From the IMG/VR virus record IMGVR_UViG_3300032116_001341, positions 1 to 23,269 of that record: a stretch of DNA of 23,269 nucleotides. One strand, 5' to 3'. Both the position numbers and the translations under genes were made by a program. Of this stretch, positions 48 through 20,291 are shown in pieces; within the stretch, counting starts at the first letter, position 1, and each line of letters opens with the position of its first letter. The stretch comes from a virus. The notes under the pieces were generated by a model. It was not told where the DNA came from, searched no databases, and was given only the letters and a program-made list of their open reading frames with translations.

Positions 48-2534
48 TTATAATACTTCTTGATATTCGATTGTTGAACCTGCTCTCAGTGTTAATAAAG
101 CAGCAGTTGAACACCTAACACGAATGGTTACCGTTCCGTTTGCCGTTGGTCGAATCATGCCCTCGCCACTAACAATTCCGTTACTACTCATTGCAGCATT
201 CGTTCCCGCGTCATAAGCAGTACCATTAAAAATCGTTGTAGTAGTTGCGGCATTCGATACGATATAACGATAAGTATTGAATGTTGGTGACGCTGGTCCT
301 GTAATGCTAAATGTAGCAGTTGCAGTAGCAGTGAATGAGAATGTAGCACGCCACTTATATGTCTTATTCGCAGTAACCGCAAAAGACAAATCAGTCACAC
401 TTTCAAAACCAGTTCCGACATTGGTGAATGTTGTTGCCAGTATTGCAGTTTGTGTTGCAACAATAGACAAATCAGTTGCAAGTTGTGATGCACTAATACT
501 ACTAACCGAATTATCTGCATTTACTCTCAAATATCGAATGGCGTTAGGATTGGTTAGAGTAGCAAGGTTAGTACCTACTGTTGTTAGTCCTATGTTGTTT
601 TGCTTACCATTGAACGTAGACCAATCCGCACTACTTAATGCACCACGATTTGACGCTGATGCCGTTGGTAAATTGAAAGTATGAACCGAACCCGCCGAGT
701 TAATTCCGAAATCGGTTCCGGTCGTGCCTGTTGCGAACGTCTGGGTGTTTGCCGTTAATCCGTTCAACGAGCTGAGGCCAATCGCATAAGTTGAATGAAC
801 CTCGCCAATTTTGCCGTCTTCAGTGTAAAGTGTGACAGTCTTGCCGTTTGTGTTTTGAATATCAAACTCAATATATATTCGGTCGGTTGCGAGCGTGATG
901 GTGTTCGGAACCGAAATAGTGAAAGTGTATAAATCAGGCACGTTGCCGTTCGTAATTTGTTCGAGCGGTGACGTTGCTATTAACGTAAACGTTGAACCGT
1001 TGTACGTATAAAGTTTGGCCACTATCTCAGCATTATTCGAACCGCCACCAGTCTCGCTTAAATAAACGTCGATCGTCCAAACGCCCGAGGGAATAATTGT
1101 ATGGTTGGGTGAACCGACGTCAGTAATGAATCGAGCGATCGCGCCAGTGGTCGCCCTTGTGAAATTTGCCGCCGGGCCTGTGTTCGCCGCAGTTCCGAGT
1201 TGATAATAAGGATTGCCGCCAATACTTCCCTGGCTAACATTTCCATTAAAATAGAAAATTTGACCGCCACCACCCCCGGTGCTCGGGAAATTAGCGAGAG
1301 TGCCATCGCCCCTAATATATTGCGAGGTTGTTCCCGCCCCGGAAACCGCGAGGGTTCCCGCTGTGGTAACTGGCGAACCCAAAACAGTAAAGGCGCTTGG
1401 CATTGTCAAACCAACCGACGTAACCGAACCGCCCGCCGCGGGTGTTATTGCTTCCCAATCGCCCGAGCTCGAGTTAAACGCTAGAATCTGGCCGTTGGTT
1501 GGGCTCGGTGTATTAACGTCGCCCAGGTCGTCCAAATTAACCGGAATGGTTGGTTTATTCAATATCTGAGCGACGCCACTAACGGCATTCCAATCCGAAT
1601 TTACTTGAGCCGCGGGAATAGTTGGTAAATTACTCAAGTCGTTGTAATCGCCCGAGGTTGCAACGGCCGCTAAATTTGGCTTATTGAGAATTTCAGCAAC
1701 CCCGCTCACGGCGTCCCAATCGCTGTTAACCTGAGCCGCAGGAATAGTTGGGAATGATTGAACCGCCCCGGTTCCGTCAATGTAATCGCTCGAGGTTCCG
1801 TTAACCGTAACCGCTAATGTTCCCGCTCCGGTAATAGGCGAATTGGCAACTGTAAAACCCGACGGCATCGAAAGTCCCACACTAGAAACCCCGCCGCCGC
1901 CACCGCCACCTGTGGCACTTATTAAAACCGTTCCATTACCTTGATCGACTAGCGTTATGTTTGTCCCTTGCTGTAAATTCAAAATGGACTGAACCGCATT
2001 GTTAACGCCGTTCGTTTTTAAAACCAAACCAACGCCGCCGCCCGAACCTCCAGAACCCGAACCGCCAACAGTCCAATCCGCTGGAATATCGCAAGCGCTC
2101 CAATCCCAAGGAACCGAGAGCGTAATAGCTAGGTTTACGCCTGTCAACGTCTGGCTATATTCCTGAATAAAAACCTCAATAGAAGGCGAGCCCTCGAGCT
2201 CAACCGTTGGCCCGAAAAGAACCAACCCATTTTGTATTTCGGCCACTAAATCCTCGGCCAGTTTAATACAGTCGCTAATTATTTCGCGCTCATATTCAGC
2301 CGGGGTTTCCTTGTCTCGAGGCAAATCGGCAAACGTTACAACGAATGAGTAAAGGCGAGAGCCCGGACGTGGTTCAACCTCAACTGGAAAAACGTGCATC
2401 CAAGGAAACTCCAAACCCTTTTCAATGTCAATAACCGAAGGGTGGCCGTGAGTAAATTGCTTAATTAAGTAATGGCCCGCGGCAAACGCTTTGAACCTCT
2501 CGATTAAAACATTATAACTTATTTGTGTAATCAT
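48..2534 (-). CDS. Tail fibre-like protein with an N-terminal globular domain
   Basis: 828 residues. Residues 1 to about 155 look globular (FAAGHYLIKQFTHGHP, then FPWMHVFPVEV) and resemble small tail or neck proteins of Bacteroidota phages. A Gly/Ser linker (about 156-168) follows, then a low-complexity fibre. Repeated units include IPAAQVNSDW-AVSGVA-ILNKP (two copies, about 265-335), a VGL-MPS-FTV unit followed by GTLAV (two copies), and LSSADWSTFNGKQ near 640, a phrase common in phage fibres. The C-terminal ~150 residues look like a beta-rich head domain that could bind the host. It probably forms a trimeric fibre joined to the tail by its N-terminus. The start codon overlaps the stop of the frameshifted chaperone (ATGA), so it is in the same operon. 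The repeats and Gly-rich linkers are seen directly; receptor binding is inferred. Confidence 0.8.
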   Translation of the reverse strand: MITQISYNVLIERFKAFAAGHYLIKQFTHGHPSVIDIEKGLEFPWMHVFPVEVEPRPGSRLYSFVVTFADLPRDKETPAEYEREIISDCIKLAEDLVAEIQNGLVLFGPTVELEGSPSIEVFIQEYSQTLTGVNLAITLSVPWDWSACDIPADWTVGGSGSGGSGGGVGLVLKTNGVNNAVQSILNLQQGTNITLVDQGNGTVLISATGGGGGGGVSSVGLSMPSGFTVANSPITGAGTLAVTVNGTSSDYIDGTGAVQSFPTIPAAQVNSDWDAVSGVAEILNKPNLAAVATSGDYNDLSNLPTIPAAQVNSDWNAVSGVAQILNKPTIPVNLDDLGDVNTPSPTNGQILAFNSSSGDWEAITPAAGGSVTSVGLTMPSAFTVLGSPVTTAGTLAVSGAGTTSQYIRGDGTLANFPSTGGGGGQIFYFNGNVSQGSIGGNPYYQLGTAANTGPAANFTRATTGAIARFITDVGSPNHTIIPSGVWTIDVYLSETGGGSNNAEIVAKLYTYNGSTFTLIATSPLEQITNGNVPDLYTFTISVPNTITLATDRIYIEFDIQNTNGKTVTLYTEDGKIGEVHSTYAIGLSSLNGLTANTQTFATGTTGTDFGINSAGSVHTFNLPTASASNRGALSSADWSTFNGKQNNIGLTTVGTNLATLTNPNAIRYLRVNADNSVSSISASQLATDLSIVATQTAILATTFTNVGTGFESVTDLSFAVTANKTYKWRATFSFTATATATFSITGPASPTFNTYRYIVSNAATTTTIFNGTAYDAGTNAAMSSNGIVSGEGMIRPTANGTVTIRVRCSTAALLTLRAGSTIEYQEVL

Positions 2535-3285
2535 TTGTATGCTTGTTTCATTATTCGCGCTTGCTCGGCGTTGTAATCTCTCATATAACTTAAATAAACA
2601 AAAATTTCCGTTGCCTGTTTATCCAAAACCTGTTCGTGTTTAGTAATGTCGTTATTGCTTACTGACTGGAGTATGTGATACCAGCCCCATTTTGCGAGTC
2701 CTGAGGGCGTATGATCTCGCTCAGTTCCCTCGTCATCATCTTGTCTAAATAGTCCAGAGAATTGTTCACCAATTCGGCGCCGATACTCGAAAAAAAAACC
2801 AACGCTCCGTTTACTTGCTCGAGAGTTAAACCCATAACCTCTTGCATGTAATCGCTCATTTTTGCCGCGTCATATTTTTGAACGTTGTAAAAGTCACCAA
2901 CTTGTTCCGTAACTGGACGAAATAGGATTGCCATTAAACGCGGGAATTCTTTATAATTAACCTTTCCGTCTTTATGCCAAATAACTTTCGCCAATGAATC
3001 TAAATCGACGTGTTCGCGAAACGTCATGCCGTTAATATCCGGAATAAACCCGAGGCGCTTTCCGTTAATTATTGTCACACGTTCGAATTTACTCGCGCTC
3101 GCATCTATTACTTCCTCGAATAAAGTTATAATTGTTTGAACGCTGTCGGCTTTTAAACTCTCGCAATACTCCCTCGATTTGTTTATTATTACCATTACGC
3201 GCTCAATATCATCAACCGCATTATGATAATCCATGAATTGTTGTAACGTTATTTGCGAGCCATCGCCTGGAATCTTCAGTTTCAT
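2531..3285 (-). CDS. Tail assembly chaperone, long form made by -1 frameshift
   Basis: The reading frame lying -1 to the 208-residue chaperone frame is open from a stop near 2850 down to a TGA at 2531-2533. From its upstream stop to near its end it has no ATG, GTG or TTG; the first Met lies only about 17 codons before the stop. It encodes a well-formed domain: TERDHTPSGLAKWGWYHILQ, then KHEQVLDKQATEIF and VYLSYMRDYNAEQ. The KWGWY...LSY pattern resembles the C-terminal extensions of G/GT-type tail chaperones. Slippage on the poly-U run would join about 163 residues of the short form to about 88 new ones, giving 251 residues. The long form would bind the tape measure while the short form coats it, as in lambda gpG/gpGT. 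The ORF ends in an ATGA overlap with the fibre gene. A sequencing indel could mimic this, but the short frame also makes a plausible full-length protein. Confidence 0.75.
2659..3285 (-). CDS. Tail assembly chaperone, short form (unshifted frame)
   Basis: 208 residues. The N-terminal half (MKLKIPGDGSQITLQQFMDY) holds NGKRLGFIPDINGMTF, then KVIWHKDGKVNYKEFPRLMA and ILFRPVTEQVG, and near 155-165 LEQVNGALVFFSS. This order (surface beta region, FPRLMAILFRP, alpha-helical ALVFF end) is what I know from tail-chaperone proteins of Bacteroidota siphophages. It starts in an ATGA overlap with the HTH gene upstream. Its role would be to keep the tape measure soluble and guide tail-tube polymerisation. 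No tape measure is visible; one would be expected downstream, beyond position 1. Family assignment rests on motif resemblance and the frameshift. Confidence 0.7.
   Translation of the reverse strand: MKLKIPGDGSQITLQQFMDYHNAVDDIERVMVIINKSREYCESLKADSVQTIITLFEEVIDASASKFERVTIINGKRLGFIPDINGMTFREHVDLDSLAKVIWHKDGKVNYKEFPRLMAILFRPVTEQVGDFYNVQKYDAAKMSDYMQEVMGLTLEQVNGALVFFSSIGAELVNNSLDYLDKMMTRELSEIIRPQDSQNGAGITYSSQ
2790..2798 (-). promoter_or_regulatory. Poly-U slippery site for -1 ribosomal frameshifting
   Basis: The plus strand has nine A's here, read as G GUU UUU UUU UCG on the message. In the chaperone frame this is Val-Phe-Phe-Ser. Slipping back one base keeps U-U pairing in both sites (U UUU UUU heptamer) and enters the frame encoding the KWGWY extension. 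I did not find a convincing pseudoknot or hairpin just downstream by eye. Confidence 0.7.
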
Positions 3286-3611
3286 AGATTCGAACTAATT
3301 GTAATTATTGGTTGGTTGTCGGCTCCGGTTAATTCCTGGCGTTCAACGTAACCGCGTTTTTTGCCTTTCGTTTTTAACCTGAAAATAATCGCCGTTATTT
3401 CGCCCGCTTCGACCGCTTCCATTAACTTAACCTCGGCCCGGTCAGTTGCCTTTTCGTCCTCAATTTGAAGCTCGGCCGTTAACTCGAATTGTTTAATGTA
3501 CTTGTCGGCGGTATGCCAATCGCAACCCAGGCGGCGGGCTATTTCGCTAATGTAACCGCCAGAGCCATCGATCGCTTTTTTAACTTCGGACTTTTGGAAA
3601 TTGTAAGCCAT
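3282..3611 (-). CDS. HTH protein resembling small terminase subunits
   Basis: 109 residues. Residues 8-40 form a helix-turn-helix (IDGSGGYISEIARRLGCDWH, then TADKYIKQF). A charged middle (EDEKATDRAEVKLMEAVEAG) follows, then AIIFRLKTKGKKRGYVERQE and a short tail. The E-x-KL...AIIF-LKTKGK-RGYVERQ ending is a pattern I associate with phage small terminases and related DNA-binding proteins. It would recognise the packaging site and hand DNA to the large subunit. Unusually, the large terminase lies on the other strand about 3 kb away. It shares ATGA with the chaperone downstream. It could instead be a regulator. Confidence 0.55.
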   Translation of the reverse strand: MAYNFQKSEVKKAIDGSGGYISEIARRLGCDWHTADKYIKQFELTAELQIEDEKATDRAEVKLMEAVEAGEITAIIFRLKTKGKKRGYVERQELTGADNQPIITISSNL

Positions 3612-6777: not shown

Positions 6778-8076
6778 ATGGCGATTCAGTTTTTACCGAA
6801 ACAAAACCAATGCCTGGACGCGCTCGGCCTCGATTCGACCGCCGAGGTTGTATTGTTCGGTGGCGCCGCCGGTGGCGCAAAATCTTTTACAGGTTGCGCT
6901 TGGCAAATAATGAGGCGGTTAAAATATCCGGGAACGCGCGGGTTAATTGGTCGCTCGAAACTCGATACACTTAAAAAAACAACCCTCAAAACGTTTTTCG
7001 AAGTTGCGGCAATGTTCGGATTGGTTGCCAATAAACACTACCAATTTAACGCGCAGAGTAACATAATAATTTTCTCGAACGGTTCGGAAATAATTTTAAA
7101 AGATTTATTTGCATACCCTAGCGATCCCTCGTTTGATTCTTTGGGCTCTCTCGAAATAACCGATGCGTTTGTTGATGAGTGTTCTCAGGTTTCAAAAAAG
7201 GCCGTCGATATTGTCCGCTCACGAATTCGCTACCGATTAACTCAATACAACCTAGCGCCCAAAACGTTGCTAACTTGCAACCCCTCGAAAGGTTGGTTAT
7301 ATAACGAGTTTTTCGCTCCATTCCGGGCGGGCCAATTACCCGAACATTTAGTATTTATTCAATCGCGTGTGGCCGACAACCCACATTTACCGCCAACATA
7401 CGCCGAAACGCTCGCTCGGTTGCCTGAGGTTGATCGTAAACGCTTGCTTGAGGGTGACTGGGATTACGACGAAACCCTGGACGCCCTATTTACCACTGAT
7501 GATCTTTTACGCTGTTTTCGGACGCCCAACGAAACTGGCGAACTATATATTACCGCCGACGTTGCGCGCTTGGGCAAGGACAGAACGGTAATAGCCCTTT
7601 GGCGCGGGCTCTCACTCATTCAAATAACAGAGCTCCGAAAAAAGAAAATAGATGAAACCGCTGCGGTTATTCGTGAAATAGCTGATTATTACAAAGTAAA
7701 ATTGAGCAATGTAATCGCCGATGCCGACGGCCTGGGCGCCGGGCTCGTTGACGTTTTAAAATGTCGCGAGTTTCGGAACGGCTCAAGAGCAACGAAACCC
7801 GAGCGGTTCGTTAACTTGAAAGCCGAATGTTTTTTTAAGTTAGCTGAACTGATCGAGTTAAACCGAATAACTTTCCCACTTCAACACCGCGATACAATAG
7901 TAAAGGAACTCGATTTAATCCGGCGTAAAAACCCCGAGGGCGATGGAAAGCTCGCAGTAACAGGCAAAGAGGAAATTCAAAGAACCCACGGAATGAGCCC
8001 GGATTACGCCGACGCCGTTGCGATGCGAATGTTTTTCGAGCTGTTTCCTAATTATGGACGTTATTCATACGCCTAA
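6778..8076 (+). CDS. terL: Terminase large subunit
   Basis: 432 residues, normal for the family. The ATPase half has a Walker A motif GGAAGGAKS (28-36) and a Walker B with catalytic acid, DAFVDECSQ (129-137). LLTCNPSKGWLYNEFF near 164-179 is the coupling region. The nuclease half has ITADVARLGKDRTVIALW (Asp261), VIADADGLGAG (Asp315/Asp317) and SPDYADAVAMR (Asp409/Asp412), a complete RNase H-like metal site. It pumps DNA into the prohead and cuts concatemers. The start follows the previous stop directly. It is transcribed with early genes and not with the capsid genes, which is uncommon. I see no truncation. Confidence 0.95.
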   Translation: MAIQFLPKQNQCLDALGLDSTAEVVLFGGAAGGAKSFTGCAWQIMRRLKYPGTRGLIGRSKLDTLKKTTLKTFFEVAAMFGLVANKHYQFNAQSNIIIFSNGSEIILKDLFAYPSDPSFDSLGSLEITDAFVDECSQVSKKAVDIVRSRIRYRLTQYNLAPKTLLTCNPSKGWLYNEFFAPFRAGQLPEHLVFIQSRVADNPHLPPTYAETLARLPEVDRKRLLEGDWDYDETLDALFTTDDLLRCFRTPNETGELYITADVARLGKDRTVIALWRGLSLIQITELRKKKIDETAAVIREIADYYKVKLSNVIADADGLGAGLVDVLKCREFRNGSRATKPERFVNLKAECFFKLAELIELNRITFPLQHRDTIVKELDLIRRKNPEGDGKLAVTGKEEIQRTHGMSPDYADAVAMRMFFELFPNYGRYSYA

Positions 8077-10104: not shown

Positions 10105-10798
10105 CCCTTATTTAAATGACTACCTGTTAACGGTGGCCCAGAACTCGAGCGCCTGGGATAAAATGCGCCTCGGACGTTTTACAGGTTCCGGCATTAGTGC
10201 GCTAATGACAAACCCCAAAACCAAGGCCGCGATCGAAGCGGGCGAGCTGAGCGAAACAGCCAAAAAATACATTTACGAAAAGGCAATGGAAACCGTCACC
10301 GGGCAAAGCTCGAATGAGGCAACCTCTCGCGCGATTGATTGGGGCAACGAATGGGAAGAACACGCCCTGCGTCAACTTCAAATTGCGCTCCAGAGCCCCG
10401 AGGAATTGACCGAGTTAAAACCCTCGTTTAAATTATTCAACGATTATTTCGGTTGTTCGCCCGACGCGTTTATGGATCATAAAGAATTTGGCCGCGTTGG
10501 TTGTGAAATAAAATGTCCTTGGAATTCGGTTAACCACTATTTACATTCCCAGGTCGAAACGGCCGAAGATTTAAAACGTGTTAACTCCGATTATTATTGG
10601 CAAGTGATGGGAAACATGTTAACGTTTAATTTGCCCGCCTGGGTGTTCGCTTCATACGATCCTCGCCAACCCGAACACCGAATGTTACACCACACGGTTA
10701 TTTTATTCGATCCTAGCGCGACGGCCGATTTATGCGAGGCGATGGAACGCGCTCATTCATACAAGGCCCAGATTTTACATAATTGGATGAAATTATAA
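10094..10798 (+). CDS. YqaJ-type viral exonuclease
   Basis: 234 residues from the ATG at 10094 (MSSNPYLNDYLLTVAQNSS); an earlier in-frame start at 10055 adds a low-quality 13-residue leader. Motifs: RLGRFTGSGI (25-34), RAIDWGNEWEEHAL (79-92), FGCSPDAF (119-126, Asp124), GCEIKCPW (136-143, the E-x-K of PD-(D/E)XK nucleases) and YYWQVMGNML. These are the lambda exonuclease/YqaJ landmarks. It would chew 5' ends to give 3' tails for the annealing protein just upstream. Confidence 0.88.
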   Translation: MSSNPYLNDYLLTVAQNSSAWDKMRLGRFTGSGISALMTNPKTKAAIEAGELSETAKKYIYEKAMETVTGQSSNEATSRAIDWGNEWEEHALRQLQIALQSPEELTELKPSFKLFNDYFGCSPDAFMDHKEFGRVGCEIKCPWNSVNHYLHSQVETAEDLKRVNSDYYWQVMGNMLTFNLPAWVFASYDPRQPEHRMLHHTVILFDPSATADLCEAMERAHSYKAQILHNWMKL

Positions 10799-10819
10799 AC
10801 ATTCCCAACTGTCCCAAAT

Positions 10820-10837
10820 GTGAAAATTGTGAAAATT
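10820..10837. repeat. Tandem GTGAAAATT repeat, possible operator
   Basis: Two exact back-to-back copies of GTGAAAATT lie in the 64-base gap between the exonuclease and the next gene, followed by a T tract. This could be a repressor or initiator binding site. No promoter is clear here. Confidence 0.35.
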
Positions 10838-10862
10838 TTTTAACCCTTAAAAACATTTAAAA

Positions 10863-11279
10863 GTGAATAAAGATTTAATTGAATTATTGATCGATACCAT
10901 TGGCAAAAAGCCCGAAATCGACGCCCAAAGTATTTACCAAACCTGCGAGAGCCACGGTTATAAAAAAGGAACGTACACGGCATATTTGTCTTTTCTAAAG
11001 AAAGCCGGGTATGTTCGCCGCGTTCGGCCCGAGGTTTACGCTATCGGGCGGCTTGCTAGTAATAAAACAATTGCGGTTAACTTGCAACGTTTGGCACTTC
11101 ATAAAAGAGAGCTGAAGGGAGTACGCCCCGAAAGCGCCCCGAAAAGCCCCCAGCCGAAAGTTGACAAATTGCCGCTGAGGGAAATCGCCCGGGCTGAATT
11201 TACAAATCAGCAGAACGAAATAACCCGCGCGGTTGAATTGTTAAAATCTTTTGGTTTCAAAGTAACACTGAGCGTTTAA
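10863..11279 (+). CDS. Winged-helix-like DNA-binding protein (138 aa)
   Basis: Starts with GTG after an A-rich leader. Residues 1-60 (IDAQSIYQTCESHGYKKGTY then TAYLSFLKKAGYVRRV and YAIG) have the helix-turn-helix plus wing layout of a winged helix, with the wing near RRVRPEVYAIG. A basic, Pro-rich linker (100-115) and a C-terminal helix (QQNEITRAVELLKSFGFKVT) follow. Probably a DNA-binding regulator or replication accessory. No specific family recognised. Confidence 0.55.
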   Translation: MNKDLIELLIDTIGKKPEIDAQSIYQTCESHGYKKGTYTAYLSFLKKAGYVRRVRPEVYAIGRLASNKTIAVNLQRLALHKRELKGVRPESAPKSPQPKVDKLPLREIARAEFTNQQNEITRAVELLKSFGFKVTLSV

Positions 11280-18164: not shown

Positions 18165-20291
18165 TTAACGTCTGTAATTTTTGCCCTCGCGTCCATAAAT
18201 CGGGTTGTCCGCCAAGAAACCGTTATAATCCATGTCGATAGGCCACAATGCGACCAACTCCTCATTTCGAACTTTATAACCCATTTTTTCGGCTCGAGCC
18301 ACCGCGATTTGTTGCGCATCTTTTGCGAGCGGGTTTATTCCTTTCGCATTTATATACACCTCTTTGCGCCAATAGTGATGGCAATTTCCACCACCTTTGT
18401 ACAACCAAATATCGTAAACGCTCGCTCCCTTTGGGCCCCAACCCGGGTTAACGGCCTTTGTTTCCATTGCTATAATGTCCTCTTTTCTATAAAGTTTGTC
18501 GGCGGCTTTCATTTTCTGGCAAAACTCGCGCTCTGTAACTTGATCGCCCGAATATCTGTAACGCGTCATAAATGTAACTCCGGCATAATTAGTTTCGTCT
18601 TGATCGCTCGGCATCATCGCTTTCGCGCTTCCGGTACTTGCCAACTCGTGCGCCTCGATTTTAACCAATTCCTCGTTTTCGGCATCGTCGTTGTCGTAAT
18701 CGACATTGTAACTATCGATTAAAATATAACCCTCTGGGCTATCCTCGCCCAACGCAATTAATTCGTCGGCAACGGCTGAACTCAATTCCTCGCGTTTAAT
18801 TCGGGCGATTATTCGAGCCGCCCAATCACGACCAGGATCGCCGCCCCATAACTCCCATGCGATTCGCCCGGCGCTCGGGAAACCTTCCTCACCTTGCGCC
18901 CAACCTTTCCCTTGTTTGTCGATTTCATGACGTGCAAAGTAACTGTTCATTCGTTTAACAGTGTCAACCGATAGGTTTCTCAAGTTGCTAATATCGCGAG
19001 CCCTCGCAACACCGACCTCGGTTCCACCACGACCATATTGATCGCGCCACTTCAAACCCAATTCGGCTCGCTGAGCCATTTCGTTTGTTGGCTTGTAACT
19101 TTCCTCGGCCAATTCAACCCCGCAACACTTTTTTTTTTCGGCCTCGAGATCGGTCGGGCCCGGAGCGGGCGCAACCGTGACAGGCGCTTCTGTTTTTAAT
19201 GGAGTATTTGGAACAACGGTAATAGTTAAACCCGGCATTTCCCAACCCAAAACTTCCTCAAACGCTTTTGCTAACTTGCGCTGTGCGGGCTCAATAACCT
19301 GATTCGTGAAAATTTCTAAACCAACGGCCATTTCATCCTTGTTAGAACCGAAGCCGCTCACGTCTCGAATTCCGAAAAGTAACGGCGTTGTTACACGGTG
19401 TGCAACCATTATTAACGACGTCGATTCGGTGCTCAAAAATTGGTATTGCTTATCAGCGTCGCTAAGTGGAAATGTAGTAATATCAGGTTTCGGAGTGTCC
19501 CTCTCGTTAAAAGTCATTATAAACTTTCCCGCATTTTTTGCGCCTGTCAACTCACGCTCCCAATCGCGTTTCATTTCTCGCTGTTGTTCCGGATCAGGAG
19601 CACCTTGAAACATTGAAACAATAAACGACGGCATCAAGCCGTTGACTATATTGTTAATGTGATAAACTGAAATTTCCTTTGCTAGCTCGATCGAGTTTAT
19701 AGCGCTGTAATAATCTGGGCGCGGGTAAAATTGCGCTCCGGTATAATTATAACAATAATAAATTTGGCGCGGTTCGTCGCCTTTTTTTGCTAGGTTAAAA
19801 AGAGGAATAAACTCGGGTTTGTTTCTTTTTTTCTTTATGGCCGCCCAGTCGTTCGAATGCCACACGCCGCAAATTTCCTCATCTTCGCCATGAACCCCCA
19901 AACGACATTCCTCAAATGGAATGTGGCGCAATTTGGCCACGTTCTCGCGATCAAAAGTGTAAATAATCTCGATATAAAAACCGCCATATTTTTTATAATC
20001 GTGAGCGCAACCATAATAAACGTCGTATGTGTTAAGCTCTGTTAACCGTTTATCGTAAACGCCTGCCTCGAGCGATTTACCCGCGATCATATCGCCAATG
20101 GAAATACAAAGAGAACCGTGAACGGCGCCAGTCTGGGCCAATTCTCTAAGATATTGAGGGAATAAATTATTGACCCCGAAATTAACCCAACCGCCGCGGT
20201 CCATTCGCTCGGCTGAACTTACAACCGTGTAATCCGCAAGTTTTACGCTCACGGCGTTTTTAATCGTTTTATCCATTGTAAATGACATCAT
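18165..20291 (-). CDS. Portal protein fused to two C-terminal head domains
   Basis: 708 residues, much longer than a usual portal (400-500). Residues 1 to about 360 are the portal: LFPQYLRELAQTGAVHGSL near 43-61, YYGCAHDYKKYGGFYIEIIY at 92-111, and the long crown region AHRVTTPLLFGIRD at 297-310. A Pro/Ala linker (about 364-397) ends with CCGVEL. Residues 400-500 carry QYGRGGTEVGVARARDISNL and PSAGRIAWELWGGDPGRDWA, a small domain seen in other phage head-region proteins. Residues 540-700 hold RYRYSGDQVTEREFCQKMKA and VNPGWGPKGASVYDIWLYKG followed by GGNCHHYWRKE, another recurring head domain, perhaps a capsid-interior or MuF-like part. The start overlaps the previous gene by 23 bases. No frameshift seen. 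Confidence 0.78.
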   Translation of the reverse strand: MMSFTMDKTIKNAVSVKLADYTVVSSAERMDRGGWVNFGVNNLFPQYLRELAQTGAVHGSLCISIGDMIAGKSLEAGVYDKRLTELNTYDVYYGCAHDYKKYGGFYIEIIYTFDRENVAKLRHIPFEECRLGVHGEDEEICGVWHSNDWAAIKKKRNKPEFIPLFNLAKKGDEPRQIYYCYNYTGAQFYPRPDYYSAINSIELAKEISVYHINNIVNGLMPSFIVSMFQGAPDPEQQREMKRDWERELTGAKNAGKFIMTFNERDTPKPDITTFPLSDADKQYQFLSTESTSLIMVAHRVTTPLLFGIRDVSGFGSNKDEMAVGLEIFTNQVIEPAQRKLAKAFEEVLGWEMPGLTITVVPNTPLKTEAPVTVAPAPGPTDLEAEKKKCCGVELAEESYKPTNEMAQRAELGLKWRDQYGRGGTEVGVARARDISNLRNLSVDTVKRMNSYFARHEIDKQGKGWAQGEEGFPSAGRIAWELWGGDPGRDWAARIIARIKREELSSAVADELIALGEDSPEGYILIDSYNVDYDNDDAENEELVKIEAHELASTGSAKAMMPSDQDETNYAGVTFMTRYRYSGDQVTEREFCQKMKAADKLYRKEDIIAMETKAVNPGWGPKGASVYDIWLYKGGGNCHHYWRKEVYINAKGINPLAKDAQQIAVARAEKMGYKVRNEELVALWPIDMDYNGFLADNPIYGREGKNYRR

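Follow-up and report, generated by a model that had tools for sequence, protein, structure and literature searches.

gpG, the short protein of phage lambda, coats the tape-measure protein, and its rare long form gpGT, about 1 in 30, brings in tail-tube subunits; both forms bind the tape-measure and tube proteins and are absent from virions. A long product can also come from transcription, as in Shigella mxiE, where it is made by insertion in a U run through transcriptional slippage on T9 (PMC1088944). Here we analysed a 23,269-base virus record (IMGVR_UViG_3300032116_001341; the window, meaning this whole stretch of DNA) and the relatives of one of its genes, the slip gene, in which a run of nine U's precedes a second open frame. 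As a whole, the data are best explained by a two-product slippage gene with a G/GT-like role in a tailed phage of Bacteroidota, a reading to which we give a probability of about 0.6. A literature search returned no paper describing a frameshift in this gene.

A nine-U run and two reading frames

Most decoding of the slip gene would end at the 0-frame stop and yield the short, 208-residue protein, and some would slip at U9 into the -1 frame, giving a rarer protein of 251 residues with an 86-residue helical domain added (Table 1). After a slip at U_UUU_UUU, this predicted fusion would consist of residues 1-165 from frame 0 and 86 residues from frame -1. The predicted junction peptide of the window's virus is MSDYMQEVMGLTLEQVNGALVFFFEYR, with one Phe fewer if the mRNA loses two bases.

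Table 1. Coordinates of the slip gene, its overlapping frames and its neighbours in the window
Feature	Position	Strand	Description
0-frame ORF, 208 aa	3285-2659	minus	Short product: N domain and 43-residue 0-frame tail past the slip site
U9 slippery run	2798-2790	minus	Codons 163-166, GTT TTT TTT TCG
In-phase heptamer U_UUU_UUU	2797-2791	minus	Within U9
-1-frame extension, 86 codons	2534..2791	minus	Helix, linker, KWGWY...LSYMRDY helical domain
TGA stop of the -1 frame	2533-2531	minus	ATGA overlap with the ATG of the next ORF (2534-2532)
Stretch read in both frames past the run	2662..2789	minus	Used for codon-position entropy
Upstream neighbour, helix-turn-helix, small-terminase-like	3282..3611	minus	4-base overlap with the slip gene; weak HTH_29/HTH_23 matches
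Downstream neighbour	48..2534	minus	~150-aa conserved tail-module domain, then fibre repeats; phrog_9729 tail fiber match in the repeats

The initial annotation had described the nine-U run near codon 163 of the 208-residue frame, an open -1 frame with an organised domain and an ATGA overlap with the next gene, and all three are borne out, the -1 frame being open from before the run through to its TGA. The false gap predicted for an ORF-only annotation is likewise there, at 124 nt (2535-2658) and not the 125 given, and the loss of the long protein in such an annotation can be seen in Nonlabens phage P12024S, where gp38 and gp39 are listed separately. The -1 frame had further been said to lack a start until about 17 codons before its stop: an ATG does stand there, but a TTG (2626-2624, 31 codons before the stop) had been overlooked. 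This TTG lies 3' of the KWGWY motif and therefore does not rescue a separate gene.

AlphaFold2 modelled the short product with a mean pLDDT of 77, good as far as the slip site but below 50 from about residue 170 on, and the -1-frame domain as helices with a mean pLDDT of 71, best at residues 41-80. When predicted viral structures were searched, about ten viral single ORFs (220-267 aa; for example, A0A516L5A8, A0A6J5N0W0 and A0A516L611) matched both the N and the C models. Judged from predicted proteins, not DNA, such two-domain relatives support the existence of a fusion protein.

Conservation of the run and selection on the overlap

The 36 relatives from a first search (48-86% identity) share the offset of T9 within the gene, and, contig ends aside, both frames are open in all of them. 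Widening the set by profile searches and by queries with distant members gave four clades, the most distant members sharing about 20% identity with the window, and a final set of 269 distinct sequences in 95 clusters among the matches listed (family size, at least 269). The 0-frame ORF, which matches phrog_32199 (E 2.9e-15), has homologues in all 269 distinct sequences among these matches. Across them the run was T9 in 263, T10 in five and T11 in one; it was shorter than nine in none, and its codon phase was identical in all. The set includes two complete genomes of isolates, Nonlabens phages P12024S and P12024L. From run to stop the extension spans 81-96 codons in relatives among the matches listed, and its profile matched in the -1 frame only, wherever these could be scored. 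A sample of 395 genomes from the phylum of one member, L039, contained no member besides L039 itself.

By comparison of sequences, the slippage observation is thus confirmed, and the gene is real and deeply conserved across the listed relatives; the fusion is almost certainly made by slippage at the U run. The initial annotation had raised two other possibilities, that the extension forms a gene of its own with a separate start or that a sequencing indel broke the frame, and together these now carry hardly any weight. A separate gene is what the annotation of P12024S implies, with gp39 as its own 55-aa gene from a TAATG start, but 82 of 117 untruncated relatives lack ATG, GTG and TTG alike in the stretch from the run to the W.W motif (GTG or TTG in 29, ATG in 6; the count left out 30 relatives without W.W, nearly all of which have YGW instead). 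As both domains also occur in single-ORF relatives, the extension is very unlikely to be a gene of its own. In favour of an indel, two plasmid-database records show T7 and T8. These records are 99.7% identical to each other and are broken by further homopolymer indels, whereas hundreds of assemblies, and complete genomes of isolates too, agree on the run; in every reliable relative it is nine or longer. An indel or a chance ORF was excluded by the invariant run, the fixed phase and the occurrence of the C-terminal domain in the -1 frame only.

Selection appears to act on the run itself. Phe codons in these genes are TTT in 61% of cases; TTT-TTT is found in 63 of 63 clusters (p about 1e-27 under random choice of Phe codons at that frequency), and at the last base of the second TTT a T-to-C change, silent in both frames in 30 clusters, occurs in none (p about 4e-7), these p values being guides because the clusters are partly related and not fully independent. 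In the window's clade, all three codon positions of the overlap are constrained (entropy 0.46-0.60), compared with entropies of 1.24 for third positions ahead of the run and 1.02 for third positions of the -1 frame past the 0-frame stop, where the codon pattern is that of the -1 frame alone. This is the pattern to be expected of two coding frames. In clades B and C, it is mainly the -1-frame pattern that is seen in the overlap, and the 0-frame tail may therefore be less important in these clades. In one distant clade this tail has a conserved NGVGI motif, which was considered as a functional element and rejected: it is KWGWY read in the other frame, and in the window the 0-frame tail has a modelled pLDDT below 50.

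Two further observations concern the edges of the family. Flavobacterium phage 6H, considered as a relative with another slip site, carries a distant N-domain homologue (10352-10927, minus strand; profile E 8e-6, fold E 2e-4) that has no T9 run; next to it, down to 10047, lies an unannotated stretch of about 300 bases in which a long frame is open. The two plasmid records with T7 and T8 (NZ_CP040811.1, Escherichia fergusonii; CP045836.1, Lysinibacillus pakistanensis), whose 99.7% identity extends over 18.5 kb, contain the same phage genome, slip gene included, in repeated copies, with homopolymer indels disrupting the ORFs; a single contaminating phage that found its way into two unrelated assembly projects seems to be the source.

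Ribosome or RNA polymerase

The initial annotation had called this a programmed -1 frameshift. Slippage on the U run into the -1 frame stands, and its ribosomal nature is favoured by a narrow balance: a -1 shift at U_UUU_UUU is slightly better than an even bet. U9 suits either mechanism. A substantial though lesser share of the probability goes to transcriptional slippage, in which the polymerase would add one U (U10) or drop two (U7) on T9 and ribosomes would read the altered mRNA unslipped, and a small share to both mechanisms acting. The protein is identical by either route, except that one Phe is lost if the polymerase drops two bases.

The codon-phase test leans towards the ribosome, and the rule that the run is never shorter than nine leans towards the polymerase. 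In the genes of these phage contigs, T7-T8 runs with an in-phase U_UUU_UUU are depleted (0.50, z -4.1) and others are not (1.02), although with small counts and mechanical ORF calls; this dependence of T7-T8 avoidance on codon phase speaks against the polymerase, as does the use of ribosomal shifts for the G/GT gene pair by known long-tailed phages (PMC5009743). On the other side, the run stays at nine or more among the 269 listed sequences even though the ribosomal heptamer needs seven, and the two T's outside the heptamer, for which a ribosomal model has no need, are likewise invariant. Run length was set aside as proof of polymerase slippage, because each outer T helps to encode a hydrophobic residue in one of the two frames, and, of 12 other N-domain columns that are strongly hydrophobic, 4 are just as strict. 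Overlapping ORFs that share a conserved run of nine A or T are a published sign of transcriptional slippage (PMC1088944), and such a run is present here. Bacteroidota genes moreover deplete T and A runs by length from 8-9, whatever the codon phase, and runs of at least nine A are depleted in the genes of these phages too (0.41, again from small counts and mechanical ORF calls). Past the run, the +1 frame closes within 10 codons in 87% of cases, compared with 68% elsewhere, which also fits the polymerase.

Failure to detect a ribosomal stimulator points the same way. No conserved stem-loop or other stimulatory structure was found 3' of the run in relatives. A Shine-Dalgarno-like stimulator upstream, as in dnaX, was rejected as a candidate, being present in part of the window's clade and absent elsewhere; Bacteroidia ribosomes do not recognise Shine-Dalgarno sequences (PMC9976891). 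In E. coli, U_UUU_UUU is far less shift-prone than A_AAA_AAG (PMC5009743). Programmed polymerase slippage on an invariant T9, in place of the ribosomal shift of other long-tailed phages, as the source of the G/GT-like pair throughout a lineage of Bacteroidota phages seems to us less likely than not.

Elsewhere in the window, a portal-like ORF of 708 aa (18165-20291) appears to carry a long C-terminal extension. Inside it, the coding strand has ten A's (19129-19138), which stand out given the A-run depletion.

Gene order and a candidate tail-chaperone role

Relatives share a conserved order of terminase genes, slip gene, a ~150-aa protein, a neck/tail-completion-like protein, proteins of 350-470 aa and 750-1080 aa, and tape measure, and the slip gene therefore belongs to the tail module. 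Position beside terminase genes in relatives also contributes to the small-terminase-like label of the upstream neighbour. What the initial annotation named a fibre gene downstream does have fibre repeats, added in the window's clade, L121 and L142, but its core is the ~150-aa tail-module protein, which stands alone in two other clades (L189, 5751-6203; L235, 5755-6210). In the window and its clade, the large terminase gene (window 6778-8076) lies on the opposite strand and apart from the slip gene; outside that clade, it is directly upstream of the slip gene in other clades.

Judged from architecture and place, the two products probably work like the lambda gpG/gpGT tail-assembly chaperones, and tail chaperone is a plausible name for them. 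Among the features of such chaperones, the overlapping ORFs joined by a late -1 shift were found by comparison of sequences, and an X_XXY_YYZ heptamer in the right phase is present in all listed relatives. The slip gene does not lie between the major tail protein and tape-measure genes, adjoining the latter: the tape-measure gene lies 5-8 kb further on, with four or more genes in between. The lambda logic proposed in the initial annotation thus holds for the two-form architecture and fails for the place beside the tape measure. Profile searches gave no match between profiles of known tail chaperones and the slip gene, and solved structures in the PDB contained no relative by sequence or fold; viral fold matches to named chaperones were weak (N, E 0.011 with probability 0.90, and E 0.2; C, E 5.3), although the first of them, to a tail assembly chaperone, counts in favour of the tail role. 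Because of the gene's place, and because homology is at best putative, we do not file it as a member of the G/GT family.

A pair that truly slips could serve another purpose, for example as a head-completion or packaging factor, which we hold to be unlikely, if less so than the alternatives to slippage itself. Such a role would suit a gene that follows the terminase genes, directly after the large terminase gene in two clades, and that stands 5-8 kb ahead of the gene that lambda-type chaperone genes adjoin; the weak fold matches to named chaperones, with none in solved structures, agree with it. Yet the genes after the slip gene form a tail-module series up to the tape-measure gene, directly before which there is no other room for a G/GT pair, and pairing a short with a slip-extended form is, among phage structural genes, the distinguishing mark of tail chaperones (PMC5009743). 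A chaperone-like pair is the reading we retain.

The device is of a known kind; what is new is the invariant run of at least nine U's and the gene's place. Slippage here would provide a hidden protein and its expression mechanism for a large, nearly unannotated lineage of environmental Bacteroidota phages (at least 269 distinct sequences), for which current families divide the protein between two unrelated unknowns or lose the C-terminal domain, and databases hold the short form only or two pieces. The invariant U9 also offers a clean natural case for separating ribosome from RNA-polymerase slippage in a class whose ribosomes are blind to Shine-Dalgarno sequences (PMC9976891).

Compared with lambda gpG/gpGT and its counterparts in long-tailed phages (PMC5009743), the slip gene is alike in pairing a short protein with a rarer -1-shifted form that gains a C-terminal domain near the end of the first ORF, in its canonical X_XXY_YYZ and in keeping the shift at low sequence similarity. 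It differs from lambda in the all-U run of at least nine, invariant among the listed sequences of the family, in following the terminase several genes ahead of the tape measure, and in having no recognisable sequence homology. With Shigella mxiE and insertion-sequence genes (PMC1088944), it shares nine T's in the overlap of two ORFs, where the long product would need one extra base; unlike them, it is a gene of a phage structural region, has an in-phase ribosomal heptamer as well and is known from DNA alone. The gp38/gp39 pair of Nonlabens phage P12024S (PHROGs 32199 and 38404) has homologous N and C domains, the same placement of T9 and the same tail-module order, whereas its N domain is only about 29% identical to that of the window, and gp38 (175 aa) and gp39 (55 aa) are annotated as two unrelated hypothetical proteins.
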